A program made the position numbers and the translations under genes. Below are positions 23,579 through 36,409 of a stretch of DNA of 46,901 nucleotides, in pieces. Below the pieces are notes generated by a model that did no database searches, was not told the DNA's origin, and saw only the letters and a list, made by a program, of their open reading frames with translations. Location: positions 1 to 46,901 of the IMG/VR virus record IMGVR_UViG_3300013132_002601. One strand, 5' to 3'. Numbering within the stretch: position 1 is the stretch's first letter; the number at the start of each line of letters is the position of its first letter. This DNA is from a virus.

Positions 23579-24515
23579 AATAGTTTACATTACGGGATGC
23601 CTTGGGTTCATTGGATATCATGTAACCTTAGCGTGCCTTAAGCGAGGGTGGCATGTTAGGGGTATTGATTCGCAAACATATGCCGCGAATTTGTCTTTTC
23701 TTTCTGAGCTACAACAGTATGAGAAGTTTGTTTTTGAAAAGCAAAATATCAATAGCATCACTCATCTATATGACTGTGACTATGTTATCAATACAGCAGC
23801 AGAGACACATGTTGACAACAGCATAGTGAGTTCAGATGTCTTTCTTCATAGCAACATCAATGGGGTGCATAACCTACTTGAACTCATAAAACAGAAACCT
23901 GCCTCTCGTAGGCCTACACTTTTGCATTTTAGCACCGATGAAGTTTATGGTGATATAGAAGTGGGGTCTCATACTGAAACCGATCTGCTTAAACCGAGCA
24001 ATCCTTATAGCGCAACTAAAGCTGCAGCAGATATGTTGATTTTAGCATGGGCAAGGACTTATAATATTCCATATGTGATTGTTAGACCAACTAACAACTA
24101 TGGGATTGGGCAGTATGTTGAAAAGTTCATTCCTCGAGCATGCAAAAACTTATACTTGGGTAGACTCATAAGTCTACATGATAGGGGGGTGCCCAAAAGA
24201 ACTTGGCTTCATGTTAGTGATACGGCAAGCGCAGTCATAACGATAATTGAAAGTTCAGAAAGAAATAGAATCTTCAATGTGTCTGGTAACTATGAGGAAA
24301 AGAATCTTGTTGTAGCTCAAAAGTTGATCAAACACATCTTGGGAGATGTCGATCCTCTTAGACATGTTGATTTATCAGAGACCAGGCCTGGTCAAGATGT
24401 GAGGTATGCGATTGACGATAATGCTTTAAGATCAATAGGTTGGGCACCTAAAGCTAACTTTGATGTGGAATTAGCAACTATTTGTAATTGGTATAAAAAC
24501 AACTTTGTTTGGTAA
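23571..24515 (+). CDS. RmlB-type NDP-sugar 4,6-dehydratase
   Basis: 314-residue extended SDR with ITGCLGFIG at the N-terminus, the STDEVYGD catalytic triplet, YSATKAAAD and RPTNNYG. All are typical of dTDP-glucose 4,6-dehydratase (RmlB), so it should make a 4-keto-6-deoxy sugar, a possible substrate for the E1-type dehydratase. The nucleotide specificity cannot be read by eye. It overlaps the previous gene by 8 bp. Confidence 0.85.
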   Translation: MNKIVYITGCLGFIGYHVTLACLKRGWHVRGIDSQTYAANLSFLSELQQYEKFVFEKQNINSITHLYDCDYVINTAAETHVDNSIVSSDVFLHSNINGVHNLLELIKQKPASRRPTLLHFSTDEVYGDIEVGSHTETDLLKPSNPYSATKAAADMLILAWARTYNIPYVIVRPTNNYGIGQYVEKFIPRACKNLYLGRLISLHDRGVPKRTWLHVSDTASAVITIIESSERNRIFNVSGNYEEKNLVVAQKLIKHILGDVDPLRHVDLSETRPGQDVRYAIDDNALRSIGWAPKANFDVELATICNWYKNNFVW

Positions 24516-24517
24516 TT

Positions 24518-25207
24518 ATGAAAAAAATAGTAAGCGTTAGCTCTTATGGTACAAACGCTCGTTATATAGTAGGAGCGCATAGACAATATGAACTTTCAAG
24601 AAGTTTGTATCCAGATTGGGAATATAGAATTTATGTAGATGATGCATCGAACTATAATATGCCTGATGCCACCATCATTGAAGTAAAAGACGGTTCACAT
24701 GGGGTCTTTTGGAGATTTGAACCGTTGTTTGAGAATGAGAACAATGTTGTCATCGTAAGAGACTCAGATGGAAGAATCAGCTATCGAGAATGTAAAGCGG
24801 TGAATGAATGGCTAGAATCGTCAAAGAGTTTTCATGTTTATAGAGACCATGAAGCACACTTTGAATTTCCCATAATTGCCTGTGCGTTTGGGTATAAGGG
24901 GAAGCTTTCTTCTTCCCTTCACAAAATTATGAGGGAGTATGCGACAAAGACAAACTATTACACCAATGATCAAGTATTTTTGCGAGATCATGTTTGGCCT
25001 ATTGTTGAAAGTGATACACTAATACATTCAATGAATGAGGGTTGGTTTGGTAAAACACGATCTACTCTACTGAACCCCTATTCATTTTGCGGGAATGGAT
25101 ATGATGAATTTGATATGCCTCTATATCCTGAAACTCTCGCTGAGATGGCGGGATTTGATCAAAAGAATCTACACGAAAGATACAAGTTTGATGGGGGAAT
25201 CTGGTGA
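24518..25207 (+). CDS. putative glycosyltransferase
   Basis: 229 residues from ATG 24518. It has a VIVRDSDGRISYRE segment like the metal-binding loop of GT-A enzymes, followed by FHVYRDHEAHFEFPI. Similar proteins in phages and bacterial capsule clusters are annotated as glycosyltransferases. Substrate unknown. The stop overlaps the GTG start of the following gene. Confidence 0.55.
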   Translation: MKKIVSVSSYGTNARYIVGAHRQYELSRSLYPDWEYRIYVDDASNYNMPDATIIEVKDGSHGVFWRFEPLFENENNVVIVRDSDGRISYRECKAVNEWLESSKSFHVYRDHEAHFEFPIIACAFGYKGKLSSSLHKIMREYATKTNYYTNDQVFLRDHVWPIVESDTLIHSMNEGWFGKTRSTLLNPYSFCGNGYDEFDMPLYPETLAEMAGFDQKNLHERYKFDGGIW

Positions 25208-26010
25208 AATCTTTTTTCATTCTACCTATTCATAATAAGGAAAGTTTGCTCTTAAAGGTTTTACAAGGAATCGTTTCAAGTGCATCAAGTGACTATCAAA
25301 TCTTAGCGATCCTTGACGGATGCAATGACTCATCAGAACAAATACTGCTTGACTTCATAAGTCAAAATAAGTTGTCTAATCATTTTTTAGTTTCTTACAT
25401 GGATGATGTGCATGAGATAACTTGTTTAAATCACGGGTTGACAAAAATACGACTATCGAATGCACGACCTGAAGATTTAATCTTTACTGTTCAAGATGAT
25501 GTTATTCTTCAAGAGACACAGGTAGACAAAAAATTTAATTACTTATTCACGCATGAACCCAACTTAGGTTATGTTAGTATGAGATTAGGTTGTGATATAG
25601 TTAATCTTGATCATACAATAGGTGAAAAAAATTATGTTGAATCAGAATACGGGCATTGGAAACAATTGGGATTTAATCATTTCTATTGTGCAAAACAAAA
25701 TGAACTTATCAAAGTGCCCATCGCTATTAGAAGCCCCACATGTGTTTTATGGAATAGGTATAAAAAAGTTGGATTTTATGATGCCGCACTGGCCCCTTGT
25801 GGGTTCGATTGTCATGACTTTAGTTTGCGTATGATAGAACACAATTTTCAAAATGCTGTTTATGTATTAAAATACTTAAGTGATGTGTCATGGGGAGGAA
25901 TGAGAACAGAAACAATTTCACAAATAAACTCTCGTCATGGAGAAATTTATGAACAGAATCGACGATATTTGGCAATGAAACACAGGGATTTATTAAGGAC
26001 AATTTCATGA
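25204..26010 (+). CDS. GT2-like glycosyltransferase
   Basis: 268 residues, starting with GTG in a GTGA overlap. It begins SFFILPIHNKESLL, followed by ILAILDGCNDSS, a typical GT2 nucleotide-binding start, and later FTVQDDVIL as acidic metal site. Single-domain cytoplasmic enzyme. Donor and acceptor unknown; the operon context suggests the same glycan as its neighbours. Confidence 0.72.
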   Translation: MKSFFILPIHNKESLLLKVLQGIVSSASSDYQILAILDGCNDSSEQILLDFISQNKLSNHFLVSYMDDVHEITCLNHGLTKIRLSNARPEDLIFTVQDDVILQETQVDKKFNYLFTHEPNLGYVSMRLGCDIVNLDHTIGEKNYVESEYGHWKQLGFNHFYCAKQNELIKVPIAIRSPTCVLWNRYKKVGFYDAALAPCGFDCHDFSLRMIEHNFQNAVYVLKYLSDVSWGGMRTETISQINSRHGEIYEQNRRYLAMKHRDLLRTIS

Positions 26011-26732
26011 ATCCATTAGTGACTATTGTAACCGCAACCACTTGCACTCCATATCTACGTCAAAACATTGACTCTGTTTTAGCGCAAACCTATCCCAACA
26101 TTCAGCATCTTGTGGTCATAGACGGCAAACATCACCTTGAGAAGCTAGATTACGATATCGCTGCTGATATAGTCACACTTCCATATGCAACAGGCACAGA
26201 GCAGTACAACGGGCATCGTATCTACGGGGCTGCAACTTATCTTGCAAAGGGGGACTTTATCATGTACCTTGATGAAGATAACTGGATCGAACCCAACCAC
26301 ATAGAAAGTTTAATTGAATTGCTCAAAGATACTCCCAACTCCTATGCCTGTGCGCTTAGGAAGATCACAGACATGGAGGGAAACTTTATCTGTAATGATG
26401 ATTGTGAGAGTCTTGGAAACTGGGTGTCAGTCATCAACGACTACTTTGTAGATGTGAACTGTTTCTTTCTACCTAAGAAACTTGCCCTTCAGCTAACACC
26501 TATCTGGTATCGTCGAGCAAGGCATCCAGAAGATCAACCGGAAGTTGATCGGGCATTGACAAATGTGTTAAGATACAATAAAATACAATGCTTGGTGAGC
26601 GGCAAGTATACCGTAAACTATCGTGCAGGCAATCGAGCAGATTCTGTTCGACCTGAATTCTTTTTACAAGGCAATGAACATATGAGGAAAGTATACAATG
26701 GAAAGTTCCCCTGGCAAGCCCCTGCAGTATAA
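26007..26732 (+). CDS. GT2 family glycosyltransferase
   Basis: 241 residues. A canonical GT2 start, PLVTIVTATTCTPYLRQNIDSVL, lies at 3-25, with IMYLDEDNWIEP as DxD-type site near residue 90. It is the last enzyme gene of the sugar operon and overlaps the start of the DUF3310 gene by 35 bp. Substrate unknown. Confidence 0.82.
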   Translation: MNPLVTIVTATTCTPYLRQNIDSVLAQTYPNIQHLVVIDGKHHLEKLDYDIAADIVTLPYATGTEQYNGHRIYGAATYLAKGDFIMYLDEDNWIEPNHIESLIELLKDTPNSYACALRKITDMEGNFICNDDCESLGNWVSVINDYFVDVNCFFLPKKLALQLTPIWYRRARHPEDQPEVDRALTNVLRYNKIQCLVSGKYTVNYRAGNRADSVRPEFFLQGNEHMRKVYNGKFPWQAPAV

Positions 26733-27117
26733 GTACAATGAAGAGCAACTAATTCAGCAGCTGCTTGAATACGTCAATTCAACATATAACCAACACTATG
26801 CTCAAGGTGACATTCAGACAACTGAGTTCATCATTAGTAATGGTGATGGTATTGCGTTCACCCGTGGCAATGTTATAAAATATGCACAGCGTTATGGAAA
26901 GAAGGATGGCAAAAGTCGTAAAGACATTATGAAGATCCTTCACTACGCTTTGATTTTGCTCTACACTCATGACCTAGAAAATGAAAATCCCTCTGTAAAG
27001 GAAAGTGAATATGAAAATCAGTCAAGATACGATCAACATCCTCAAGAACTTCGCTACGATCAACTCAAATCTGCTGTTTCGAGCGGGCTCTACCCTATCA
27101 ACAATCTCGGCGCCTAA
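26698..27117 (+). CDS. DUF3310 protein
   Basis: 139 residues. The core HYAQGDIQTTEFIIS...FTRGNVIKYAQRYGKKDG...DIMKILHYALILL matches the DUF3310 family found in many phages near replication genes, function unknown. The domain ends near residue 100. The last 35 or so residues are translated in another frame over the first 107 bases of gene 45. Either the long overlap is real or a base change near the end has removed an earlier stop. Confidence 0.78.
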   Translation: MESSPGKPLQYKYNEEQLIQQLLEYVNSTYNQHYAQGDIQTTEFIISNGDGIAFTRGNVIKYAQRYGKKDGKSRKDIMKILHYALILLYTHDLENENPSVKESEYENQSRYDQHPQELRYDQLKSAVSSGLYPINNLGA

Positions 27118-27661
27118 GTCGATCTTTGCAAAAGCAGAAGTTAGCGAGACCTTTCCTAAGGAAGTTGCTATCTATGATCTGAACTCGCTCTTGCAACTTC
27201 TCACTTTTAGTGAAGATCAAGAGATTGAATTTGGTGAAAGGTCAATGACTATTACCAATGACATTGGTCGATTTGAATACTTCTACTGCGAACCGTCTTT
27301 GATCATTGCAGCACCTACGAAGAATATTGAAGTTGATGAGGTATTCAAGTTCAATCTTTCAAGCAAAGATGTGCAAACTATTGCAAAGACAGCAGGTGTT
27401 CTTGCTGCACCCACCATTGCAATTGTAGCCAAGAATGGTAAGGTTACGATGAAGATTGGTGATCGTAAGAACGATAGCGCAAACAGTTTCAATAAAGTTA
27501 TTGGTGACACTGACAAGGAATTTGAATGTTTTATCTCATCAGAGAACTTTAAACTTCTTACTAATGCGTATGAAGTAACCTTGTCGAAGAAAAACTTCTG
27601 CCAATTCAAGTCACAGAAGATCAGCTATCTGATTGCTATGGAACCCGGTTCAGTAATCTAA
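27011..27661 (+). CDS. 45: sliding clamp gp45
   Basis: 216 residues, aligning by eye with T4 gp45 (228 residues): MKISQDTINILKNFATINS at the N-terminus and VAIYDLNSLL after it. The trimeric clamp holds the polymerase on DNA and, in T4, also activates late promoters through gp33/gp55. I chose ATG 27011 with AAAGGA upstream; a GTG two codons earlier is possible. It is followed by genes 44 and 62 in the T4 order. The presence of xATAAATA promoters in this genome fits its second role. Confidence 0.92.
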   Translation: MKISQDTINILKNFATINSNLLFRAGSTLSTISAPKSIFAKAEVSETFPKEVAIYDLNSLLQLLTFSEDQEIEFGERSMTITNDIGRFEYFYCEPSLIIAAPTKNIEVDEVFKFNLSSKDVQTIAKTAGVLAAPTIAIVAKNGKVTMKIGDRKNDSANSFNKVIGDTDKEFECFISSENFKLLTNAYEVTLSKKNFCQFKSQKISYLIAMEPGSVI

Positions 27662-27676
27662 TTGGAGCATTATATT

Positions 27677-28618
27677 ATGGAAGTACGTGACAATGAGTTT
27701 CTCTGGGTTGAGAAATATCGACCCAGATTGTTAGATGATTGCATTCTTCCTGAAGAACAGAAGCGAGTGTTCAAGGAGTTTGTAGAAAAGGGTGAAATTC
27801 AAAACATGCTTCTCTGTGGAGGTCCTGGTATGGGCAAAACCACAGTTGCAAGGGCTTTGTGTGAGGAACTTGAAACTGACTATATCATCATTAACGGATC
27901 AGAAGAGTCGGGTATCGATGTTCTTCGCACGAAGATCAAGCAGTTTGCATCAACTATGTCTTTCACGGGTAAGACAAAGGTTGTGATTCTAGATGAGGCA
28001 GATTACCTAAATCCCAATTCTACGCAACCTGCATTGCGAGGATTTATTGAAGAGTTTTCTAAGAATTGTCGATTCATTCTAACTTGCAACTTCAAGAATC
28101 GTATCATCGCACCTTTGCACTCGCGATGCTCTGTTGTTGAGTTCAAGTATGCAAAAAGTGAGAAGGCACAGATTGCAGGCCAAGTGCTAAAGCGACTAAC
28201 CTTCATTCTAAACAATGAAGGCATTTCGTTTGACAATAAGGTTCTTGCTGCACTCATTCTGAAACACTTTCCCGACTATCGTCGAATCATTAATGAACTG
28301 CAAAGGTATTCTGCTGCAGGAACTATTGATGAAGGCATTCTTGCGAGAGTGGGTGAAGTCAACACACAGGAACTCATTTCTTCTTTGAAAGAGAAAGATT
28401 GGAAGAAGATGCGTTCATGGGTAGTAAACAATATTGACAATGACCCTCCTGCAATCTTTCGAAAGATCTACGATGATCTGATTGAGAAGGTTAAGACAGT
28501 TCCTCAGATGGTATTGATTGTTGCAGATTATCAATACAAGTCGGCGTTTTGTGCTGATCAAGAGATCAATCTGGTTGCATGCTTGACTGAGATCATGGCA
28601 ACGGTTGAGTTCAAATGA
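27677..28618 (+). CDS. 44: clamp loader ATPase gp44
   Basis: 313 residues (T4 gp44 has 319). It shows WVEKYRP at the N-terminus, Walker A GGPGMGKTT, Walker B VVILDEADYL and the SRC arginine-finger motif in HSRCSVVEF. It loads the gp45 clamp together with gp62. Start chosen at ATG 27677, with TGGAG 10 bases upstream; an in-frame TTG at 27662 is unlikely. Overlaps gene 62 by four bases. Confidence 0.94.
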   Translation: MEVRDNEFLWVEKYRPRLLDDCILPEEQKRVFKEFVEKGEIQNMLLCGGPGMGKTTVARALCEELETDYIIINGSEESGIDVLRTKIKQFASTMSFTGKTKVVILDEADYLNPNSTQPALRGFIEEFSKNCRFILTCNFKNRIIAPLHSRCSVVEFKYAKSEKAQIAGQVLKRLTFILNNEGISFDNKVLAALILKHFPDYRRIINELQRYSAAGTIDEGILARVGEVNTQELISSLKEKDWKKMRSWVVNNIDNDPPAIFRKIYDDLIEKVKTVPQMVLIVADYQYKSAFCADQEINLVACLTEIMATVEFK

Positions 28619-29025
28619 GCGAGGAGTTCAAACTACCATCTATCAATCCTTTTGACTTTGTAAACTCAATCTCTCACACCAAAGAGAATCTCATCGTTGA
28701 CGATTGGTCAGAGCGCCAGTACAATCCCTTTATTATAAATAAAGCGTTAAGTTTTGGCTCTGATACAGTAATTCAATGTAATGAGATGAACTCGAGGCCT
28801 CACCTTGACAAGAAACTACAATTTGATTTTCTACGTCACATTATAACTAAGAAACCGCGTTATAATAAGTGGATGAAGAAGGAGAAGCTTGAGGCAATTG
28901 AAATAGTGAAACAATACTATGGGTACAATGCAAAGAAGGCCCAAGAGGCACTATCCATTTTGTCTAAGCAGCAAATTGATTCATTAAAACAAAAATTACA
29001 AAAAGGTGGATTGAAAAATGGCTGA
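28615..29025 (+). CDS. 62: clamp loader small subunit gp62
   Basis: 136 residues with NPFDFVNSISHTKENL at the N-terminus and EMNSRPHLDKKLQFDFL centrally, as in gp62 of cyanophage-type T4 relatives; T4 gp62 is longer (187). It is the non-ATPase subunit that completes the clamp loader. Position between 44 and regA is the T4 order. A TATAAATA string at 28734-28741 inside the gene may be chance. Confidence 0.85.
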   Translation: MSEEFKLPSINPFDFVNSISHTKENLIVDDWSERQYNPFIINKALSFGSDTVIQCNEMNSRPHLDKKLQFDFLRHIITKKPRYNKWMKKEKLEAIEIVKQYYGYNAKKAQEALSILSKQQIDSLKQKLQKGGLKNG

Positions 29026-29452
29026 TGAGATTTCGTTTAACGTAGATTTGGATGGATATGTCCCCCTAGAGATCAAACTAAAAGAACCTGATGACTTTCT
29101 GAAAGTCAAGGAGACTCTTTCACGTATTGGTGTAGCATCAAAGAAAGACAAAACTCTCTACCAATCATGTCACATCCTTCATAAGCAGGGTAGGTATTTC
29201 TTAGTTCACTTTAAAGAGCTATTTGCCCTCGATGGCAAGTTCGCTGATATCACAGACAACGACATTCAGCGCAGAAATACTATCGGAAAGCTATTGCAAG
29301 ATTGGGAATTAGTGACTATCATTGATCCTGCATTGTTTTCAGATCAGGCTCCTTTGTCGCAGATCAAAGTTTTGTCTTATAAGGAAAAAGGTGAATGGAA
29401 CATTCAAACCAAATATAATTTGGGAAAAAAGTCCAACAAAGCTGATAAATAA
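29018..29452 (+). CDS. regA: translational repressor RegA
   Basis: 144 residues, close to T4 RegA (122) with a short N-terminal extension. Shared stretches include DDFLKVKETLSRIGVA, KDKTLYQSCHIL and YFLVHFKEL. RegA binds mRNA near the start codons of early genes, including the clamp loader genes in T4, and shuts down their translation. It overlaps gene 62 by 8 bp. Confidence 0.95.
   Translation: MADEISFNVDLDGYVPLEIKLKEPDDFLKVKETLSRIGVASKKDKTLYQSCHILHKQGRYFLVHFKELFALDGKFADITDNDIQRRNTIGKLLQDWELVTIIDPALFSDQAPLSQIKVLSYKEKGEWNIQTKYNLGKKSNKADK
29444..29451 (+). promoter_or_regulatory. possible late promoter GATAAATA
   Basis: GATAAATA overlaps the regA stop. It is in the right place to transcribe the rubredoxin and hsp20 genes from a leader of about 90 bases. 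One base differs from TATAAATA, as in the other late-type boxes here. Confidence 0.4.
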
Positions 29453-29455
29453 TGT

Positions 29456-29518
29456 ATCCCCGGGATGGGAACTAGGCTGGCATCCTAGTCAAATCTGCCG
29501 CTACGCCTAATGGGTAGC
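29456..29518 (+). other. three adjacent small hairpins in the leader of the rubredoxin gene
   Basis: Between regA and the next gene are ATCCC/GGGAT (29456-29466), ACTAGG/CCTAGT (29471-29489, seven-base loop) and GCTACgCC/GGGTAGC (29500-29518). None has a T-tract, so they do not look like terminators. They could be a structured leader or processing signals. Confidence 0.5.
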
Positions 29519-29547
29519 AATTTCAACTCGCTGAAAAGGAGAAACCA

Positions 29548-29694
29548 ATGAGCGAAGAGCATAGCGTTTATGTTTGTGAAGTATGTGGTCATGAGTACGA
29601 TGAAGCAAAAGAAGGTAAGAAGTGGAAAAATCTACCCATGTTCTGGTTGTGTCCTGAGTGCGGTTGTCACAAGGACGAGTACGTAAAAGTTTAA
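29548..29694 (+). CDS. mini rubredoxin-like protein
   Basis: 48 residues with two CxxCG-type knuckles: YVCEVCGHEYD near the N-terminus and WLCPECGCHKDEY near the C-terminus, with the WKNLP segment between them. This is the rubredoxin iron-binding pattern, but the central loop is several residues shorter than in free-standing bacterial rubredoxins. AAAGGAG precedes the ATG at 29548. It probably binds one iron or zinc. An electron-transfer role is possible but no partner is visible. Confidence 0.75.
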   Translation: MSEEHSVYVCEVCGHEYDEAKEGKKWKNLPMFWLCPECGCHKDEYVKV

Positions 29695-29717
29695 TCTTGC
29701 TTAACAAGGAGATTCAA

Positions 29718-30212
29718 ATGACTTATCTAAAAGACGTTTTTGGTCGCGACATGTTTAAAGACTTTGACAAATACTTTGTGGGATTCGATAGTGAATACAA
29801 TCGACTCGCGAAGATGCATGATGACCTCACGAAGGGAGTTCCTAACTATCCTCCATTCAATATCAAGAAAGTTTCTGAAGATCGTTACATCATCGAACTT
29901 GCTGTTGCAGGTTTCGGAAAGTCAGAGATTGATATTGAACTAGCAGACGGAAAGTTGATTGTCAAAGGAATGTCAAAGGAAGATGCAGAAGCAAGCAATT
30001 GGATTCACAAAGGAATCGCTAATCGTAACTTCACTCGAACCTTCCTACTCAATGACAACCTAGAAGTTAAAGATGCTGAACTTTTCAATGGTATGCTTCG
30101 TATCTGGCTTGATATGATCATCCCCGAACATAAAAAGCCCAAGAAGATCGCCGTCAAAGAGACTGCATCAACTAAAGAACAACCTGCTCCCAAGCAGCTT
30201 TTGACAGAGTAA
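29718..30212 (+). CDS. small heat-shock protein (Hsp20 family)
   Basis: 164 residues with an alpha-crystallin domain. It shows NIKKVSEDRYIIELAVAGFGKSEIDIE, the KLIVKG strand, and NRNFTRTFLLNDNLEVKDAELFNGMLRI, which carries the conserved GML/I motif. T4-like cyanophages commonly carry such a gene, thought to hold folding intermediates during virion assembly. Start at ATG 29718 with AAGGAG upstream. A terminator follows it. Confidence 0.9.
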   Translation: MTYLKDVFGRDMFKDFDKYFVGFDSEYNRLAKMHDDLTKGVPNYPPFNIKKVSEDRYIIELAVAGFGKSEIDIELADGKLIVKGMSKEDAEASNWIHKGIANRNFTRTFLLNDNLEVKDAELFNGMLRIWLDMIIPEHKKPKKIAVKETASTKEQPAPKQLLTE

Positions 30213-30228
30213 AAGTCAAAAAAGTTCG

Positions 30229-30264
30229 ACGGGGCTTGACAGCTCCCGTTTTTATTTGTACAAT
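30229..30264 (+). promoter_or_regulatory. composite terminator and promoter
   Basis: ACGGGGC and GCTCCCGT (one bulged T) form a stem whose six-base loop is TTGACA, followed by TTTTTATTT, so it reads as a terminator for hsp20. The same TTGACA is a -35 box, 17 bp before TACAAT (30259-30264), so it also reads as a promoter for the next gene. Confidence 0.75.
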
Positions 30265-30278
30265 GTGTTTGTGATTTT

Positions 30279-30286
30279 GATAAATA
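30279..30286 (+). promoter_or_regulatory. possible late promoter GATAAATA
   Basis: A T4-late-like box 22 bases before ATG 30308, with AAAAGGA as ribosome site between them. It would add late expression to the sigma70-type promoter just upstream. Confidence 0.45.
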
Positions 30287-30307
30287 TAGAAAAACAAAAG
30301 GATTTCT

Positions 30308-30871
30308 ATGTCTACATCTTTTAAAGACTTTTTGCAAGAAGCTAGTCTCAGTAGAGTGCATTCCCATGTGCAGAACAGAAACATCGGAATGATTACTGCT
30401 CATCGAGGTGAGAATACTGCAAAAGAGAACTCATCTCGCAACAAGGAGCTTGAAAAAAGCATTCGTGGTGCAGGATACGGGTTCGTAAAAGTTAAAGGTC
30501 GATACATTGAAAATCACGGCACAGATAAAGCTAGAGCAGTAGATGAAGATTCTTATCTTGTTGTAGGTAAGAAGGGAGATGACAAAGGACAGTTGCTATC
30601 GTTTCTAAAGCAACATGGGCAGAAGTATGGTCAAGATTCTGTTCTTCATAAGTCTGCATCTGAAGAAAACGCGAAGTTGCATGGGACTAGAGAGGGTGGT
30701 TGGCCCGGAATGGGTGAAGTGCATGATGTAGGTAAGTTTCATGCCAATCGAGCAGGTGAATTTCATACAGCAATGCGAGGTCATCGATCCTTTGAATTTA
30801 GTGAATCAGTAGAAAGTTTTAGTTATGTGAGACCTGTTACGTATTTTAATAGAGAAGAAAGTTTGTTTTAA
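30308..30871 (+). CDS. putative internal protein with capsid-targeting-like N-terminus
   Basis: 187 residues. It starts MSTSFKDFLQEAS, close to the T4 capsid-targeting sequence MKTYQEFIAEAS that sends internal proteins into the prohead and is cut after LxE or IxE. The rest (AGYGFVKVKGRYIE, DEDSYLVVGKKG, EGGWPGMGEVHDVGKF) resembles phage proteins related to DUF3293, function unknown. A late-type box lies just upstream. If packaged, it would enter the next host with the DNA. Packaging is inference from the N-terminal match. Confidence 0.65.
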   Translation: MSTSFKDFLQEASLSRVHSHVQNRNIGMITAHRGENTAKENSSRNKELEKSIRGAGYGFVKVKGRYIENHGTDKARAVDEDSYLVVGKKGDDKGQLLSFLKQHGQKYGQDSVLHKSASEENAKLHGTREGGWPGMGEVHDVGKFHANRAGEFHTAMRGHRSFEFSESVESFSYVRPVTYFNREESLF

Positions 30872-30892
30872 TCAAGCCAAAAAAGTATACCA

Positions 30893-30927
30893 GGGGGCTT
30901 GACAGCCCCCAAATTTTTTTGTATGAT
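30893..30927 (+). promoter_or_regulatory. composite terminator and promoter before the tRNA cluster
   Basis: A perfect GGGGGC/GCCCCC stem has the loop TTGACA and is followed by AAATTTTTTT, a terminator. TTGACA also serves as the -35, 17 bp from TATGAT (30922-30927), eight bases before the first tRNA. It is the same design as the element at 30229. Confidence 0.8.
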
Positions 30928-30934
30928 TGTTTCT

Positions 30935-31025
30935 GGAAGCGCAAACCGATTGGCGACGGTACCTGTCTTGAAAACAGTTGAGTGTTAATAGCGCCTTGGG
31001 AGTTCGACTCTCCCCGCTTCCGCCA
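30935..31025 (+). tRNA. tRNA-Ser(TGA)
   Basis: GGAAGCG/CGCTTCC acceptor, anticodon loop CTTGAAA with anticodon TGA, long variable arm as expected for tRNA-Ser, and encoded CCA. It lies directly behind the composite promoter. Confidence 0.93.
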
Positions 31026-31030
31026 GATTC

Positions 31031-31122
31031 GGTGAGATGGCTGAGAGGTTTAAGGCAGCGGTTTGCTAAATCGTCGGTTCGCTAAAGCGGGCCCGTGGGT
31101 TCGAATCCCACTCTCACCACCA
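31031..31122 (+). tRNA. tRNA-Ser(GCT)
   Basis: GGTGAGA/TCTCACC acceptor, anticodon loop TTGCTAA with anticodon GCT, long variable arm, GTTCGAATC T-loop and encoded CCA. The operator of the next promoter begins at the base after its CCA. Confidence 0.95.
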
Positions 31123-31179
31123 TGTTGTAAAGATGCAACAAAGAAAACGCTTGACAAGCAGCATAATGAGATGTAGAAT
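31123..31179 (+). promoter_or_regulatory. operator plus sigma70-type promoter
   Basis: The inverted repeat TGTTGTAAAGATGCAACA (31123-31140) is followed after 10 bases by TTGACA (31151-31156) and, 17 bp later, TAGAAT (31174-31179). The predicted start near 31186 opens a stretch with no gene before the next promoter, so its direct product is a non-coding RNA or a leader. Confidence 0.75.
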
Positions 31180-31185
31180 TGATTC

Positions 31186-31316
31186 TGTTGATTGATTAAA
31201 AGTAGTTCAAAAGTCCTCTCTAAGTCGTCGGTCAAATACGGCGCTTGAGGCATGTGGAAAGGCATCGTATAGTTTGGATGCCACGCTACATGGCGGGTGA
31301 AGGGGGCCTGTAGCAA
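31186..31316 (+). ncRNA. candidate structured RNA 1
   Basis: No open frame or tRNA fits here. Two strong stem-loops are visible. At 31215-31250, CCTC and AAG.CGTCG pair with CGGCG, CTT and GAGG around an eight-base loop. At 31251-31292, CATGT/ACATG encloses GGCATC/GATGCC. Its own operator-promoter precedes it. It may be a stable RNA like the unexplained RNAs C and D of the T4 tRNA cluster, or a 5' leader of the tRNA transcript. Confidence 0.45.
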
Positions 31317-31372
31317 TGTTGTAAAAATACAACAAAGAAATCGGTTGACAAGAATCTTCTTTCCTGTATAAT
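31317..31372 (+). promoter_or_regulatory. operator plus extended -10 promoter
   Basis: TGTTGTAAAAATACAACA (31317-31334), ten bases, TTGACA (31345-31350), 16 bp, then TATAAT (31367-31372) within CCTGTATAAT. The first transcribed bases (GTTGATTGATTGAT) resemble those after the 31174 -10 box. It drives the tRNA-Leu transcript. Confidence 0.8.
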
Positions 31373-31393
31373 CGATAGTGTTGATTGATTGAT

Positions 31394-31421
31394 GAGCAAA
31401 TGCTCCTCTGTTCTTTAAAAA
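31394..31421 (+). promoter_or_regulatory. rrn-like antitermination signal (boxB hairpin and boxA)
   Basis: A small hairpin GAGCA/TGCTC (31394-31405) is followed by TGTTCTTTAAAAA (31409-31421), very like the boxA of bacterial ribosomal RNA leaders (TGCTCTTTAACA in E. coli). The boxB-then-boxA order is that of rrn leaders. It may let host Nus factors carry polymerase through the structured tRNA cluster. Confidence 0.5.
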
Positions 31422-31433
31422 GTTGATTGTCTT

Positions 31434-31517
31434 GCCCTGGTGGTGGAATGGTAGACACGCTGGTCTTAGAAGCCAGTGCTGAAAAGCGTGAGAGTTCGAG
31501 TCTCTCCTGGGGCACCA
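31434..31517 (+). tRNA. tRNA-Leu(TAG)
   Basis: GCCCTGG/CTGGGGC acceptor, anticodon stem-loop CTGGT-CTTAGAA-GCCAG with anticodon TAG, long variable arm and encoded CCA. The next structured RNA begins at the following base. Confidence 0.93.
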
Positions 31518-31638
31518 TATTGAAATACATTCTAAAACCCCGAAACTGTTAAATCTAACAGCAACGTAGTAGATACGGTAAGATCCGCAAGGGTGGGGTA
31601 GTCGCACGCGAAAGTCGTGAGAGAGTGTGTTTCAATAT
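31518..31638 (+). ncRNA. candidate structured RNA 2, abutting tRNA-Leu
   Basis: 121 bases closed by a 16-bp stem (31518-31533 with 31622-31637, two G-U pairs; a 17th pair uses the last A of tRNA-Leu). Inside, all nested: ACCCC/GGGGT (31537-31541 with 31595-31599) enclosing CTGTTA/TAACAG (loop AATC), CGTA/TACG and ATCC/GGGT with a GCAA tetraloop; then CACG/CGTG at 31605-31619. There is no open frame and no tRNA fold. Size and place recall T4 RNA C or D, whose function is unknown. Confidence 0.75.
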
Positions 31639-31654
31639 GCAATCTATCATTTGT

Positions 31655-31788
31655 TTAGTGTTATCAAGGTATCGTCTATAGACGTATAGACTACTCGGGC
31701 GCAACTGGCGAGGAATGCGTCCTGATATAACTGCTTAGTCGCTGTGGCACGGAAGCACCGGACGCCTAAATGGAGCAGATAACACTAA
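31655..31788 (+). ncRNA. candidate structured RNA 3
   Basis: 134 bases closed by a perfect 11-bp stem TTAGTGTTATC/GATAACACTAA. Inside, in order: GTCTATA/TATAGAC with a GACG loop (31674-31691), CTCG/CGAG (31694-31712), and GCGTCC/GGACGC (31717-31765) enclosing TGCTT/AAGCA. All helices are nested. It lies between RNA 2 and tRNA-Tyr with no promoter of its own, so it is probably cut from the tRNA transcript. Confidence 0.72.
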
Positions 31789-31801
31789 CCAAATGGTATT
31801 T

Positions 31802-31891
31802 GAGTGAGCGGCGAAGATGGTGAGTGTCGCGGCAGACTGTAAATCTGTTACTTAGGAACCGTAGGGGGTTCGAATCCCTCCTCACTCACCA
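31802..31891 (+). tRNA. tRNA-Tyr(GTA)
   Basis: GAGTGAG/CTCACTC acceptor, anticodon loop CTGTAAA with anticodon GTA, extended variable arm and encoded CCA. Confidence 0.92.
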
Positions 31892-31893
31892 AA

Positions 31894-31968
31894 GCCTGTT
31901 TAGCTCAGTGGTAGAGCAATGTGTTGATAACGCATAGGTCCTTGGTTCGATACCAAGAACAGGCACCA
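31894..31968 (+). tRNA. tRNA-Ile(GAT)
   Basis: GCCTGTT/AACAGGC acceptor, AGCTCAGTGGTAGAGC D-arm, anticodon loop TTGATAA with anticodon GAT, encoded CCA. Confidence 0.95.
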
Positions 31969-31976
31969 GAATTTTT

Positions 31977-32052
31977 GGGGGTATAGCTCAATGGTAGAGC
32001 AAGATGCTTTTAACGTCGAGGTTGGAGGGTTCGAGTCCCCCTGCCCCTACCA
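31977..32052 (+). tRNA. tRNA-Lys(TTT)
   Basis: GGGGGTA/TGCCCCT acceptor with a G-U first pair, standard D-arm, anticodon loop CTTTTAA with anticodon TTT, encoded CCA. One A-C mismatch in the T stem. Confidence 0.88.
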
Positions 32053-32058
32053 GTTTTT

Positions 32059-32133
32059 GCACCGTTCGACTATCGGTTAGGTCGCTACCCTTTCAAGGTG
32101 GAAAGATGGGTTCGATTCCCATACGGTGTACCA
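32059..32133 (+). tRNA. tRNA-Glu(TTC)
   Basis: GCACCGT/ACGGTGT acceptor, anticodon loop CTTTCAA with anticodon TTC, GGTTCGATTCC T-arm and encoded CCA. Confidence 0.92.
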
Positions 32134-32138
32134 TTTAT

Positions 32139-32213
32139 TCCGGGATAGCACAGAGGTAGTGCAGTTGGCTGTTAACCAATTGGTCTTAGGTTCAATCCCT
32201 ACTCCCGGAGCCA
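32139..32213 (+). tRNA. tRNA-Asn(GTT)
   Basis: TCCGGGA/TCCCGGA acceptor, anticodon loop CTGTTAA with anticodon GTT, encoded CCA. Its last nine bases are part of a 15-bp direct repeat found again after pstS. Confidence 0.93.
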
Positions 32214-32219
32214 TTTTTG
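32205..32219 (+). repeat. left copy of a 15-bp direct repeat at the tRNA-Asn 3' end
   Basis: CCGGAGCCATTTTTG covers the acceptor end and CCA of tRNA-Asn and six bases beyond. The identical string recurs at 33397-33411, bracketing the CAT tRNA remnant and pstS. Confidence 0.8.
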
Positions 32220-32220
32220 A

Positions 32221-32294
32221 TGCGGAATAGAGAAAAGGTATCTCAGGAGTCTCATAAGCTCCAGTTCTGGGTTCGACTCCAAGGAGGCCCACCA
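32221..32294 (+). pseudogene. degenerate tRNA with CAT anticodon (Met or Ile2)
   Basis: The anticodon arm GGAGT-CTCATAA-GCTCC, a GAG/CTC D-stem, GGTTCGACTCC and a terminal CCA are present. But the 5' TGCGGAA cannot pair with the 3' GAGGCCC (one of seven pairs), and the T stem has a mismatch. The 5' end abuts the left direct repeat, so its acceptor strand may have been replaced by recombination. Confidence 0.6.
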
Positions 32295-32307
32295 AATTTA
32301 TTTTGCG

Positions 32308-32344
32308 TTGTAATGGTTTTGTAATATAGTCTAAAATATATATT
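32308..32344 (+). promoter_or_regulatory. Pho-box-like promoter of pstS
   Basis: Two identical TTGTAAT heptamers (32308-32314 and 32319-32325) are separated by four bases, the exact layout of a PhoB box (CTGTCAT-4-CTGTCAT), with TATATT (32339-32344) as -10. This would put phage pstS under the host phosphate-starvation regulator. Confidence 0.65.
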
Positions 32345-32370
32345 TTATAGCCCTAAACAAGGAGATCAAA

Positions 32371-33381
32371 TTGAAAAAATTATTTTTAAGCATTACATGT
32401 GCATTGACGGTTTTGAGTACGCAAGCAGCAGATATCACAGGTGCTGGTGCTACATTCCCATATCCCATTTACGCCAAATGGGCCGAAGCCTATAAAAAGC
32501 AAACCGGTGTCGGCTTAAACTATCAAAGCATTGGCAGTTCAGGTGGCATTCGTCAAATCAACGCCGGTACAGTGGCATTTGGTGCTACTGATGCACCAGT
32601 AAAAGGTGAAGATTTAGAAAAACGTGATCAGGTACAGTTTCCTGCTATTATTGGCGGTACTGTGCCCATTGTCAATCTCGACGGATTCAAACCCGGTGAA
32701 CTACGCATCACCGGACCAGTATTGGCTGAAGTTTTCATGGGCAATATCACTAATTGGAATGATCTAAGACTAGCAGCTCTTAATCCCGGCAAACGGTTGC
32801 CCAATCAAACCATCACAGTGGTACATCGTGCTGATGGATCGGGCACAACATTCAATTGGACAGACTATTTGACTGTGGTCAGTCCTGAATGGGAAAAACG
32901 AGTGGGTCGTAGTGCCGCAGTGAAGTGGCCCGCAGCCAATAGTGTAGGTGGCAAGGGCAATGAAGGTGTGGCAGGTAATGTTCGTCGTGTCAAGGGTGCA
33001 ATCGGATATGTTGAGTATGCCTATGCCAAGAAAAACAACATGATTCATCTCAAACTTCAGAACAAGGCTGGTAACTTTGTCGATCCAGACGAAAAGAGTT
33101 TTGCCGCAGCAGCAGATGGTGCAGATTGGTTTGGTGTGCCCGGTATGGGGTTGAGTATCGTGGATCAAAAGCATCCACAAGCATGGCCTGTGAGTTCAGC
33201 CAGTTTCATCATCATGTACCGTAATCCTCGCAACAAAGAAACCAGTCAAGAAGTATTGAAGTTTTTTGATTGGGCATTCCGCAATGGCAAGGACATGGCA
33301 TTGGAATTAGACTATGTTCCGCTGCCTGACAGTTTGACTGCCGACATTCGTAGTAGAGTTTGGAGTCAAATTAAACATTGA
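32371..33381 (+). CDS. pstS: phosphate-binding protein PstS
   Basis: 336-residue periplasmic substrate-binding protein of the Pst phosphate transporter. An N-terminal signal peptide (KKLFLSITCALTVLSTQA) is followed by DITGAGATFPYPIYAKW, QSIGSSGGI and HRADGSGTTFNWTDYL, the phosphate-site motifs. By eye it is closest to betaproteobacterial PstS. It starts with TTG, after AAGGAG, unlike nearly all other genes here, and looks GC-richer than its neighbours. It is bracketed by 15-bp repeats. It probably boosts phosphate uptake during infection, as known for cyanophage pstS. Confidence 0.95.
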   Translation: MKKLFLSITCALTVLSTQAADITGAGATFPYPIYAKWAEAYKKQTGVGLNYQSIGSSGGIRQINAGTVAFGATDAPVKGEDLEKRDQVQFPAIIGGTVPIVNLDGFKPGELRITGPVLAEVFMGNITNWNDLRLAALNPGKRLPNQTITVVHRADGSGTTFNWTDYLTVVSPEWEKRVGRSAAVKWPAANSVGGKGNEGVAGNVRRVKGAIGYVEYAYAKKNNMIHLKLQNKAGNFVDPDEKSFAAAADGADWFGVPGMGLSIVDQKHPQAWPVSSASFIIMYRNPRNKETSQEVLKFFDWAFRNGKDMALELDYVPLPDSLTADIRSRVWSQIKH

Positions 33382-33396
33382 ACTTTCTCCCAGGAT

Positions 33397-33411
33397 CCGG
33401 AGCCATTTTTG
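33397..33411 (+). repeat. right copy of the 15-bp direct repeat
   Basis: CCGGAGCCATTTTTG, identical to 32205-32219 in the tRNA-Asn end, lies 15 bases after the pstS stop. It is preceded by CTCCCAGGAT, which may be a remnant of a tRNA 3' end. Confidence 0.8.
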
Positions 33412-33438
33412 CATATCAAAAGACCTAAATAAAAATCT

Positions 33439-34149
33439 ATGCTTAACTTTAAATCTTTTATTTCATTGGAAGAGGGTGTTCACGATCAAGGTATTTTTAA
33501 AGCAGTCTTTATGGCTGGTGCTCCGGGTTCTGGTAAAGACTATGTAATGAAAAAGACTGTTGGTGGTCATGGTTTGCGAGAAATTAATTCTGATGTGGCT
33601 TTTGAGCATTCAATGAAAAAACACGGTCTTGATCCAAAAATGCCAGAAAGCGAACAACCTAAAAGAGATTTTTTAAGAACAAAATCTAAACACACTACAG
33701 ACCTTAAAAAGAAACTATCTTTACAAGGTAAGAATGGATTGATTATCAACGGAACAGGCGATGATCATCATAAAATTAAAGCAATGAAAGACCACTTAGA
33801 ATCTCAGGGATATCAGACGCATATGGTATTTGTGCATACTGATAATGAAACTTCTATAAAAAGAAACATTATAAGAGGTCAGGCTGGTGGTAGAGAAGTA
33901 CCAGAAAAAGTTCGTCAACAAAAATGGACTGATGTACATAACGCAAAAGAACATTACAAAAATATGTTCGGTTCAAATTTTCATGAAGTTGACAATTCTA
34001 TAGATATGCTTCATGCTTCTCCTAGTGAAAGAGCAAAACACCAAAAAAGACTTGTTGATGTTCATAACCATTTTAGAAAAGTCGTTGCCTCAAAAAAACA
34101 CACACCTGAAGCTCAAAAATGGATTGACAGCCAATTGAAAAAGTCTTAA
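33439..34149 (+). CDS. zeta-toxin-like P-loop kinase
   Basis: 236 residues. Walker A is GAPGSGKD (27-34), followed by INSDVAFE, an NGTGDDHHK segment, and NIIRGQAGGREVPE, a layout like zeta-toxin-type kinases that phosphorylate small molecules. The N-terminus MLNFKSFISLEEG resembles a T4 capsid-targeting peptide with an LEE cleavage site. No ribosome site is visible before the ATG; CTAAATAAAAAT (33425-33436) lies directly upstream and may be a late box. The target is unknown. Confidence 0.7.
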   Translation: MLNFKSFISLEEGVHDQGIFKAVFMAGAPGSGKDYVMKKTVGGHGLREINSDVAFEHSMKKHGLDPKMPESEQPKRDFLRTKSKHTTDLKKKLSLQGKNGLIINGTGDDHHKIKAMKDHLESQGYQTHMVFVHTDNETSIKRNIIRGQAGGREVPEKVRQQKWTDVHNAKEHYKNMFGSNFHEVDNSIDMLHASPSERAKHQKRLVDVHNHFRKVVASKKHTPEAQKWIDSQLKKS

Positions 34150-34166
34150 AATTCTCAGGAGATAAC

Positions 34167-34334
34167 ATGATTGATCCAACAAAAAAACTCGATATTCAAT
34201 TAGAAAATCTAGATCCTGAAGTTGCAGAGTGGCTTAGAGAAGTTGTACTAAAAGATGAATATTATGATATTCCTGAGCCAGAGGATACAGATTTTGACGA
34301 ACGTTCTGCCAACAGTTACGCCTCCAAAGCATAG
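34167..34334 (+). CDS. small acidic protein
   Basis: 55 residues, strongly acidic (IPEPEDTDFDE), no family recognised. CAGGAG precedes the ATG at 34167. The stop codon lies in the D-arm of tRNA-Thr, so the last 15 bases are shared with the tRNA gene. A real gene is likely because of the ribosome site. Confidence 0.6.
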   Translation: MIDPTKKLDIQLENLDPEVAEWLREVVLKDEYYDIPEPEDTDFDERSANSYASKA

Positions 34335-34394
34335 ATAGCGATGCAGATGCCTTGTAAGCATCAGAGTTCGGCGCAAGTCCGGATGGGGGCACCA
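34320..34394 (+). tRNA. tRNA-Thr(TGT) with unusual D and T loops
   Basis: Acceptor GCCTCCA/TGGGGGC, D-stem GCAT/ATGC, anticodon stem-loop GATGC-CTTGTAA-GCATC with anticodon TGT, T-stem TTCGG/CCGGA and encoded CCA are all well paired. The D-loop AGATAGCG lacks GG and the T-loop CGCAAGT lacks TTC, so the usual elbow contacts cannot form in the standard way. Confidence 0.8.
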
Positions 34395-34398
34395 TCTT

Positions 34399-34474
34399 CT
34401 CGGATTGGGATAATAGGTAGTCCACCTGCTTTGGGAGCAGGAAGGTGCAGGTTCGAGTCCTGTGTCCGAGACCA
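34399..34474 (+). tRNA. tRNA-Pro(TGG)
   Basis: CTCGGAT/GTCCGAG acceptor, anticodon stem-loop CCTGC-TTTGGGA-GCAGG with anticodon TGG, standard T-loop, encoded CCA. Confidence 0.95.
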
Positions 34475-34498
34475 GACAATCAACTTTGTGAGAGTTAC

Positions 34499-34687
34499 AT
34501 GACACACAATGAAACTCCTATGCTGAAAATAATCACCTGTTCCGATTCTCTTATGTGGTATCGCGATCTGGTGGGTCAAGAGGTTCCTTTATTGAGAGAA
34601 TACGATGATTGTTACATGAGTCGTGAACCTACGGGATTTGCTAACATAGTCCGAAAACAAGACGCTGTAATAGTGGAGAAAAGATGA
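34499..34687 (+). CDS. small conserved phage protein
   Basis: 62 residues from ATG 34499 (GAGAG upstream). It has the pattern MWYRDLVGQEVPLLREYDD-CYMSREPTGFANIV, which resembles short proteins I know from several phages, function unknown. It may form a small beta-barrel. It overlaps the next gene by four bases. Confidence 0.6.
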   Translation: MTHNETPMLKIITCSDSLMWYRDLVGQEVPLLREYDDCYMSREPTGFANIVRKQDAVIVEKR

Positions 34688-35508
34688 GAAAACAGTATTG
34701 GTCATGCACTAAGTTTGCAGATTGGTTGCGAGGAACTAATAAGATTCCTGCAGGCACTTCTAAAGAATGGGCAAAATGGCAACTCGAAGCAGAAATGAAA
34801 AATCCTTTTCGTTTTTGGCTGGCTGAAGAAGGTCTTGATAGGATTCAAACTGCTATTATGTTCATTCCAGATAAGATTTACTCAGCCAAGTATGCTCTTG
34901 TAAACCGATTTGTAACTCGTACTCATACCCTCACCTCAAAATTGCCCAAGTACAAGTGGCATGAGATGGACACTCGAATGCTACATTGCATGTTCAATGA
35001 GCTGGTCAACTTTGTTGAAGTTGAACTTGCTGCATCCAACTACCGCTTTGATGAAGAGGCTAGGAAAAAATATAAGGTTCCTTTTTGGGGAACTGGATGG
35101 TTTCGTACTCGCACCTATCGCAATAAAGAAGCAGGTTTAGATTACCTCAACTGGGCAATCAACCTGAAGATGGACGAAACCTGGGGCATGTCACCTGAGG
35201 ATGAGGGGTATGGAAAAGAAACCTATCAAGCAAAAGGTGCAAAAGAAACTCTAGAACTCTACACCTGGTGGACACAAGTTTATCCTACCCGTCCTGACCC
35301 CTACGATGTTAGCGGATGGTCTAAACTATGTGACCGTAGGCGTGAGGAAGGAGGAGGATTTTTGTCTATCGAAGATACTACACCCGAACAAAAAGCAGAG
35401 AGTACAAAGTCTCTTGATCTCCTACGTGAAGTTGAAGAACGATACGAGCGCGAAGAAGAAGAGATGCTTATTCGTCTGATTAAGGTTAGAAAGTATCTCT
35501 GGACTTGA
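34684..35508 (+). CDS. conserved phage protein of unknown function
   Basis: 274 residues without signal or membrane segment. Notable parts are FRFWLAEEGLDRIQ, YKWHEMDTRMLHCMFNELVNFVEVE and a charged coiled-coil-like C-terminus EEREEEEMLIRLIKVRKYL. Proteins of this type recur in aquatic phages and have no assigned role that I know. It is the last plus-strand gene before the convergent minus-strand block, and a terminator follows. Confidence 0.7.
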   Translation: MRKQYWSCTKFADWLRGTNKIPAGTSKEWAKWQLEAEMKNPFRFWLAEEGLDRIQTAIMFIPDKIYSAKYALVNRFVTRTHTLTSKLPKYKWHEMDTRMLHCMFNELVNFVEVELAASNYRFDEEARKKYKVPFWGTGWFRTRTYRNKEAGLDYLNWAINLKMDETWGMSPEDEGYGKETYQAKGAKETLELYTWWTQVYPTRPDPYDVSGWSKLCDRRREEGGGFLSIEDTTPEQKAESTKSLDLLREVEERYEREEEEMLIRLIKVRKYLWT

Positions 35509-35727
35509 TTACTTCTTGGGAGGGACCTGAGTTCCCTCTAGTTTTTTATGCACCTTGATTTCTTTACAATCCTGCACAGGTTTACCATCCTTCCCAATGA
35601 CTTTCTTTCCGTCATTAGTGATCTTGTCTACACAAACTCGCTTAACTTCTGCAGCAAAAGAGACTCCGTGATAATTTAGTAAAGGAATAGATCCAACTAC
35701 AAGAGCGATAAATAGAATTTTTTTCAT
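35509..35727 (-). CDS. small exported protein
   Basis: 72 residues with a signal peptide (MKKILFIALVVGSIPLLNYHGVSFA) and a short basic tail with two cysteines in CVDKI and DCKE. It is the last gene of the minus-strand lysis operon, overlapping the gene before it by four bases. Function unknown; location suggests an envelope role. Confidence 0.65.
   Translation of the reverse strand: MKKILFIALVVGSIPLLNYHGVSFAAEVKRVCVDKITNDGKKVIGKDGKPVQDCKEIKVHKKLEGTQVPPKK
35520..35548 (+). terminator. rho-independent terminator for the plus-strand transcript
   Basis: GAGGGA/TCCCTC stem with a seven-base loop, then TAGTTTTTTATG. It lies 11 bases after the 34684 gene, inside the 3' end of the convergent minus-strand gene. 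Confidence 0.75.
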
Positions 35728-35966
35728 TTTGGTTCCTTAGGTTCGTTTTTGTTTGCAAATCTTTCTGCTACGGTTACACCCAACCCTGCTATTGCTATAT
35801 ACATCATGCCATCATACAGATGATGATCAACCTCGTATCCTAAAAAGATATTAGCAAAGAAAGCTATTGAGCAAAACACAAAAGCAAGAAATGTAACTAC
35901 CCTCTTGCTACTGATTCCTTGTGAGGTCTCAGTAGATTGGAAGATAGTTACAAGTTTAGACATCAT
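35724..35966 (-). CDS. small membrane protein, holin candidate
   Basis: 80 residues with two likely membrane helices (VVTFLAFVFCSIAFFANIFLG and MMYIAIAGLGVTVAERF) and charged ends. Two helices, small size and position in a lysis operon fit a class II holin, but no family signature is recognised. Starts in an overlap with the upstream gene. Confidence 0.55.
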   Translation of the reverse strand: MMSKLVTIFQSTETSQGISSKRVVTFLAFVFCSIAFFANIFLGYEVDHHLYDGMMYIAIAGLGVTVAERFANKNEPKEPK

Positions 35967-36409
35967 AGTTCAGGTTGGTGAGCAGGAGGGGGAGCTAGCT
36001 TTCCATTAAAACCGGTAACGACATTTCCACCCATGTGCATAGCAGATCCTAATGCAGGTTCTTGCCTTTCGACCTTAACTGGTTTCTTCACTTCTTCCAT
36101 AGTTGTTTTAAATGATTCTGTTGCTTGTTTCTGTGCAGCAAGCATCGCTTCCTTATCTTCTTTGCTTGTTCCTGCCAACATGATACCTGATAAGGTTCCC
36201 GTTAAAAATGTTGCAATAGGTACAATAAGTTCAAAGAACTTTTGATCAATAGGAGACATTGCATCAAGCGGTTGTGTCACAAAGATGATTGAATACAAGA
36301 CAACAAATACGATTCCAGTCAAAGTCAATGCAAGACATACGCCTACGAAAAACTTAAGACGCGCCATCAACTGTTCTTCAGTATAAACGAAGGGAGGCTT
36401 ATTTTCCAT
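35963..36409 (-). CDS. membrane protein, holin-like candidate
   Basis: 148 residues. Two membrane helices (about 19-45 and 62-85) are followed by a charged coiled-coil segment (KEDKEAMLAAQKQATESFK) and a Pro-rich tail. GGAG precedes the ATG. Its place two genes after the endolysin makes it another candidate for the lysis hole or for controlling it. Function not proven. Confidence 0.55.
   Translation of the reverse strand: MENKPPFVYTEEQLMARLKFFVGVCLALTLTGIVFVVLYSIIFVTQPLDAMSPIDQKFFELIVPIATFLTGTLSGIMLAGTSKEDKEAMLAAQKQATESFKTTMEEVKKPVKVERQEPALGSAMHMGGNVVTGFNGKLAPPPAHQPEL

Follow-up and report, generated by a model that had tools for sequence, protein, structure and literature searches.

A stalk-closed, covarying RNA of about 150 nt in phage tRNA arrays

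The tRNA cluster of phage T4 includes two small, stable RNAs, RNAC and RNAD (139 and 119 nt), long described yet without an assigned role. They are encoded in the same orientation as the tRNAs and immediately next to a tRNA gene. According to an excerpt of one account, their expression has been seen by Northern analysis (PMC9697503), and an excerpt of another states their roles as unknown (PMC3014915). GOLLD and ROOL are further phage-encoded structured RNAs found near tRNA islands, their function being given as unknown in part of a recent description (PMC12286853). Theta ribozymes, which are HDV-like, are described in an excerpt as having their 5' end directly at the 3' end of a phage tRNA (PMC10879173). 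Finally, in rRNA precursors a long stem joins the ends of an RNA domain within a polycistronic transcript and is cut by RNase III, as set out in a section of a review (PMC4810235).

The stretch of DNA analysed here, hereafter the window, is the virus record IMGVR_UViG_3300013132_002601, with 46,901 bases and T4-type gene content (clamp loader subunits, a RegA-like translation repressor and Hsp20, with PstS in addition). One other contig (locus L001) holds a near-identical stretch and is referred to as the twin of the window. The tRNA cluster of the window runs from 30935 to ~32213 on the + strand. Within it, an RNA of ~150 nt is preceded by tRNA-Leu and another structured RNA and followed by tRNA-Tyr, with the following features:

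31345..31372, +: sigma-70-type consensus promoter (12/12 matches), upstream of tRNA-Leu and the ~150-nt RNA
31434..31517, +: upstream tRNA-Leu (ARAGORN)
31516..31641, +: adjacent RNA, likewise closed by a stalk but with another core (z = -5.2); not homologous to the ~150-nt RNA
31645..31799, +: whole ~150-nt RNA (covariance model R1, 152.2 bits)
31649..31665, +: 5' arm of the P1 stalk (16 pairs and 1 mismatch in the window copy)
31666..31673, +: conserved single strand AAGGTATC, between P1 and P2
31674..31691, +: P2 hairpin, 7 bp without mismatch, loop GACG
31697..31722, +: P3 hairpin (31697-31702 with 31717-31722; 31705-31706 with 31712-31713)
31708..31711, +: pseudoknot 5' strand, within the P3 loop
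31723..31731, +: conserved single strand TGATATAAC
31732..31777, +: P4, proposed by the single-sequence fold (31732-31735 with 31774-31777); its register differs between copies
31739..31742, +: pseudoknot 3' strand
31746..31766, +: P5 hairpin (31746-31748 with 31764-31766; 31750-31752 with 31758-31760)
31778..31794, +: 3' arm of the P1 stalk, pairing with 31649..31665
31802..31890, +: tRNA-Tyr that follows (ends deduced from its acceptor stem, the start being 31802; 31810-31887 in ARAGORN)

Three near-consensus sigma-70-type promoters were found, at 30899, 31151 and 31345, the last with all 12 consensus positions matched. The only terminator-like site within 30850-32420 lies at 30893, upstream of the tRNA cluster; none was found in this range between promoter 31345 and the ~150-nt RNA or at the RNA itself, and a reading of this RNA as a terminator was rejected. 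The promoter region is duplicated (31125-31197 and 31319-31390, ~77% identity), with a near-consensus sigma-70 promoter in each copy. Between two promoters, and just upstream of tRNA-Leu in most loci, lies a third conserved RNA (31213-31318), whose alignment from eight related loci (A4) showed double-sided changes at 9 of 26 pairs. The genes on the sides of the cluster (30308-30871, 32371-33381 and 33439-34149) are a SAM-lyase-like gene (PF23780, E 4e-12), PstS and a zeta/AAA_33-type kinase. Two tRNA-like sequences, 32228-32283 (marginal, with 29.3 bits against a cut-off of 29) and 34320-34391, were called by Rfam and not by ARAGORN.

By place and size, RNAC and RNAD are the closest known system, since the ~150-nt RNA also lies on the tRNA strand within the tRNA cluster of a T4-type phage. 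However, RNAC is closed by no more than a short helix and terminates in a T-arm-like hairpin, and the predicted fold of RNAD is on a par with shuffles (z = -0.83); searching the T4 cluster (L121) with R1 gave no match at E <= 10 and hence no homology to either. GOLLD, ROOL and theta ribozymes have the setting in common with the ~150-nt RNA but not the fold. The first two are self-assembling cages of ~650 to >800 nt. Theta ribozymes, whose HDV-like fold differs, occur mostly in gut phages, with tRNAs that lack an encoded CCA, whereas the tRNAs abutting the ~150-nt RNA carry CCA and its stalk joins two far ends. Unlike the rRNA stalks, that of the ~150-nt RNA belongs to a phage RNA and its cleavage is a prediction.

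An earlier note on this DNA had described a perfect 11-bp stem closing a structured RNA. The two arms, TTAGTGTTATC (31655-31665) and GATAACACTAA (31778-31788), are indeed exact complements with 112 bases between them, but the stem is longer than stated there: beyond a T.C mismatch (31654/31789) the helix runs on outward for 5 extra pairs, to 31649/31794. The nested helices placed inside the stem were recovered as the perfect 7-bp hairpin, the hairpin at 31697-31722 and a helix near 31746-31766; the outer 5 bp and the pseudoknot (31708-31711/31739-31742) are additions to that reading. The fold of 31655-31788 has -43.3 kcal/mol (z = -3.1), equalled by 1 of 200 shuffles. Taken alone, the 11-bp perfect stem is unremarkable and within chance, the window containing 4 perfect stems of >=11 bp with a span of 60-250, compared with 2.7 in shuffles. 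What raises P1 above chance is compensatory evolution in relatives.

To find such relatives, 359 tRNA-array gaps were searched for homologues of the window RNA, and these were found in gaps of loci L091, L118, L094 and L093 (E 6e-11 to 3e-5). A first DNA pattern, derived from the core of these four copies, occurred in at least 119 contig stretches in IMG/VR. A second pattern, taken from another part of the RNA and picked to lessen the bias of the first, occurred in at least 120 stretches, with 68 new loci among the matches listed, of which R1 confirmed 34 of 43 and 13 of 25; the remainder look like chance pattern matches. R1 also matched 100 of 100 first-set sources (117-172 bits), as expected of a model trained on first-pattern copies; the second set provides a check on the family that depends less on the training copies. 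First-set loci beyond these 100 sources were assigned by pattern. Altogether the family comprises at least 168 contigs from uncultured phages, many of them close mutual relatives (L122-L236, 115 loci; L091, L093, L094 and L118; 47 second-pattern loci; the window and its twin). Loci L001, L081 and L084 were excluded as duplicates of the window or the twin, and L083, a duplicate of L006, was left out of the gap counts.

Pattern matches in two bacterial genome contigs were rejected, R1 giving 8.5 bits in L238 and none in L237, and low R1 scores of 15.5-15.9 bits against further stalk RNAs were taken to reflect stalk likeness, not homology. Searching 50,697 phage records by blastn with three copies and the window region returned nothing or chance-level fragments, and megablast of 24000-36000 gave no match. 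In Rfam 15, no family, GOLLD and ROOL included, matched the window RNA at gathering thresholds or E <= 10, or five further copies at E <= 1. ARAGORN and Rfam call no tRNA or tmRNA at 31655-31788, and the tmRNA of carriers lies elsewhere, so that this identity was rejected too. A description of the family was not found in the literature searched, which consisted mostly of papers available without subscription. We conclude that this is, almost certainly, a real, widespread and apparently undescribed RNA family.

Before alignment, 7 of 120 copies were dropped (6 cut by contig ends, 1 with N), as were a further 62 of the 113 that were >90% alike, leaving 51 copies that were aligned by MAFFT without structure (A1). 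RNAalifold on A1 returned 40 pairs, 32 of them with double-sided changes, and the covariation list of this alignment includes a long-range column pair involving the P3 loop. With the pseudoknot included, the covariation score of A1 was 0.578, compared with 0.187 in shuffles that ignore kinship. Two larger alignments were fitted to the model and are therefore biased towards structure: A2 (75 distinct rows) scored 0.649 against 0.207, and A3, which has 82 distinct rows and takes in diverged copies, scored 0.680, the shuffled value being 0.201 and 0 of 500 shuffles reaching the observed score; kinship was again ignored in the shuffles of both. Slid controls of A3 gave 0.078-0.119. Compensatory changes thus stand above both shuffled and slid controls, and the structured RNA proposed in the earlier note is borne out by covariation in 82 distinct aligned copies. 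The loss of pairing in relatives that the same note had named as contrary evidence was looked for, and pairing turned out to be kept by compensatory changes.

In A3, 93.2% of cells are paired and 41 of the 49 proposed pairs show double-sided changes. P1 (helix 1) is paired in 95.9% of cells, with double-sided changes at all 21 pairs, and P2 in 98.8%, with such changes at 6 of 7 pairs; the two helices of P3 (helices 3 and 4) reach 99.4% and 98.8%, and those of P5 (helices 7 and 8) 98.0% and 82.5%. P4 is unsupported, with 36-41% of cells paired in A2 and A3, the figure for A3 being 41.1%. G-U wobble pairs occur in P1 and P3. The 4-bp pseudoknot, which was absent from the fitting model, is retained by every one of the 84 aligned copies, in the form of four different quartets (GCGA/UCGC in 41, GCCG/CGGC in 35, GCGU/ACGC in 7 and GCUU/AAGC in 1). 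Some of the conservation has to be read with the search patterns in mind. Within AAGGTATC, all 82 distinct rows share GGTA, although GGTATCG belonged to the second pattern; TGATATAAC, partly fixed by the first pattern, is mostly kept in second-pattern copies; and the invariance of CTA..CGGG, CCTGA.ATAACTGC and GGTATCG..GACG..CTAT.CGG is partly forced by the patterns. The invariance of 31769-31771 (AAT) and of the outer pairs of the pseudoknot is independent of them. Overall, the fold of the ~150-nt RNA is well supported.

Counting the tRNAs within 3 kb of 120 copies gave 1305 on the strand of the RNA and 0 on the opposite one, 3 of the copies having no tRNA in this range. P1 could be placed in 114 of the 120 copies and has 12 to 27 pairs, 18-27 in 112 of the 114, with a usual length of 19-25 bp. 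An upstream tRNA is present on the locus of 107 copies; 49 of these copies overlap it or begin no more than 5 nt away, and the other 58 are separated from it by >=30 nt. Of the abutting copies, 41 adjoin tRNA-Glu, and in 45 of the 49 the stalk overlaps the 3' end of the tRNA. The 23 distinct outer arms comprise 16 that pair CCA with UGG, 2 that pair it with UAG and 5 in which no CCA was found. On the other side, a downstream tRNA is present on the locus of 106 copies, and in 83 of these the distance to it is at most 14 nt or the two overlap by a few nt. Excision from the tRNA transcript in the manner of a tRNA, which the earlier note suggested, is a prediction that this anatomy supports. A search of 26 whole records found one copy in each of 19 carriers and none in 7 chosen non-carriers, while arrays hold up to ~30 tRNAs.

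Carriers fall into at least two groups, as indicated by the clamp loader in 14 carrier records: it was matched with E 1e-128 to 1e-130 in 2 (136-157 kb) and with E 1e-75 to 1e-81 in 8 (111-345 kb), while 2 had weak matches only and 2 none. ARAGORN predicted a permuted tmRNA in 20 carrier loci, with tags such as ANDEQFALAA and an atypical tag in one (L145); the one locus scanned with Rfam, L129, had its tmRNA (2004-2390) confirmed (RF04321 and RF01850). These predicted genes sit inside or beside the phage tRNA arrays, and they hint at Betaproteobacteria as hosts. An RNA ligase (PF09414) was found in only 7 of 16 carrier records. In 20 of the 84 copies, a comparison with E. coli rRNA revealed no clear excess of similarity or complementarity over shuffles, and a role as rRNA antisense or mimic was rejected.

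The ~150-nt RNA is one of several stalk-closed RNAs in these arrays. Its neighbour at 31516-31641, from which the earlier note had correctly set it apart in sequence, has a stalk that is a variant of CATATTGAAACACA...TGTGTTTCAATATG; the exact 28-base pattern of this stalk occurs in 32 viral contigs, with varied cores among the matches listed. In 590 distinct array gaps we counted 184 stalk cassettes, compared with 22-27 in shuffled gaps, and 241 cassettes formed 90 clusters; as loci were fetched for carrying stalk elements or the ~150-nt RNA, such counts are not frequencies in phages at large. Stalk lengths concentrate at 18-22 bp in 120 distinct cassettes other than the ~150-nt RNA, and CCATA occurs within the first 8 nt of 61 of the 120. 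In locus L147, the outer stalk of the ~150-nt RNA is of the CATATTGAA type, which links the RNA to this wider class. T-arm-like hairpins outside a full tRNA, resembling T4 RNAC, were also seen in L006 (13392-13514), L092 (6803-6900) and L111 (10829-10936).

On balance, we favour a trans-acting structured RNA that is co-transcribed with tRNAs and excised at its stalk, and consider this mechanism as a whole somewhat more probable than its alternatives combined. The RNA would be transcribed together with the tRNAs from promoter 31345, and a nuclease specific for double strands would then cut its two-turn stalk, RNase III of the host being the likeliest candidate. Substrates of RNase III are near-perfect duplexes of about two turns (20-22 bp), a length that the stalk has. 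With 18-27 pairs in the P1 of nearly all copies and mostly 18-22 bp in unrelated array RNAs, the stalks appear as if measured by one enzyme. Neither a RNase III nor a TROVE (Ro60) gene was found in any of 16 carrier records; both were rejected as phage-encoded partners, and a host enzyme must be assumed. RNase III takes part in T4 tRNA maturation, as reported in a section of a review (PMC4810235). RNase P acting at the next tRNA may free the 3' side, and the released pseudoknotted core would be stable and act in trans by binding a partner. The candidate partner most likely belongs to translation or a tRNA pathway, a reading favoured by the tRNAs that surround the RNA and by the tmRNA present in some carriers. 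Against this explanation, the upstream neighbour of the window copy is another stalk RNA, not a tRNA.

The main rival to a role in translation is counter-defence, in which the RNA would serve as a decoy or antitoxin-like molecule, binding a nuclease or toxin with which the host attacks tRNA or phage RNA. T4 counters PrrC, a tRNA-cutting defence, according to an excerpt (PMC3014915); a single-copy RNA with a pseudoknotted, conserved core would suit such a function, and the window has a SAM-lyase-like gene upstream of the RNA. However, no partner of the toxin or nuclease kind came to light, and the core is conserved across two carrier groups, more than expected of a decoy in an arms race, so that we consider this reading unlikely. 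The RNA might instead act only in cis, its stalk pairing with the terminal CCA of the preceding tRNA to time or guide maturation while the core serves as a cap, as the overlap with tRNA 3' ends and the CCA-UGG pairs of most outer arms would allow. Yet 58 of the 107 copies, that of the window among them, lie at a distance from the upstream tRNA; a mere cap would need no invariant pseudoknotted core, and one copy per record is hard to reconcile with arrays of ~30 tRNAs. We judge a purely cis-acting element improbable.

Lying directly after CCA in about half of the copies and having a pseudoknotted core, the RNA could also be a ribozyme whose self-cleavage would trim the preceding tRNA at its 3' end, in the manner of theta ribozymes. 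This is very improbable: no Rfam ribozyme model matched the window RNA or the five further copies, many copies do not abut a tRNA, and the 5' end pairs with a 3' end 150 nt away, unlike in the HDV fold. An inverted repeat acting at the DNA level (a mobile cassette or recombination site), or chance pairing, has next to no probability and is already contradicted. It is true that 11-bp stems arise by chance and that the outer stem sequence CATATTGAA is common to other array cassettes, but a chance stem is rejected by the covariation of the inner helices and pseudoknot, and a mobile DNA element by the strand bias and the single copy per record; the G-U wobbles of P1 and P3 likewise speak against a function of the DNA.

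The trans-acting, stalk-excised RNA may be part of something wider. The arrays could form a cassette system, in which unrelated trans-acting RNAs are placed between tRNAs, each within the same kind of two-turn stalk, the outer end of which often makes use of the CCA of the tRNA, so that any module is excised by the processing of the tRNA transcript; the ~150-nt RNA would then be the most widespread module sampled and act in translation in the infected cell. We put this forward tentatively, as a possibility that we would sooner doubt than expect. The question posed by RNAC and RNAD gains a second, far better sampled case, conserved, pseudoknotted and in single copy per record, which is found in T4-type and in 340-kb phages. 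If the stalk is a common excision signal, the 'empty' gaps of tRNA arrays would hold many more RNAs that annotation has missed.
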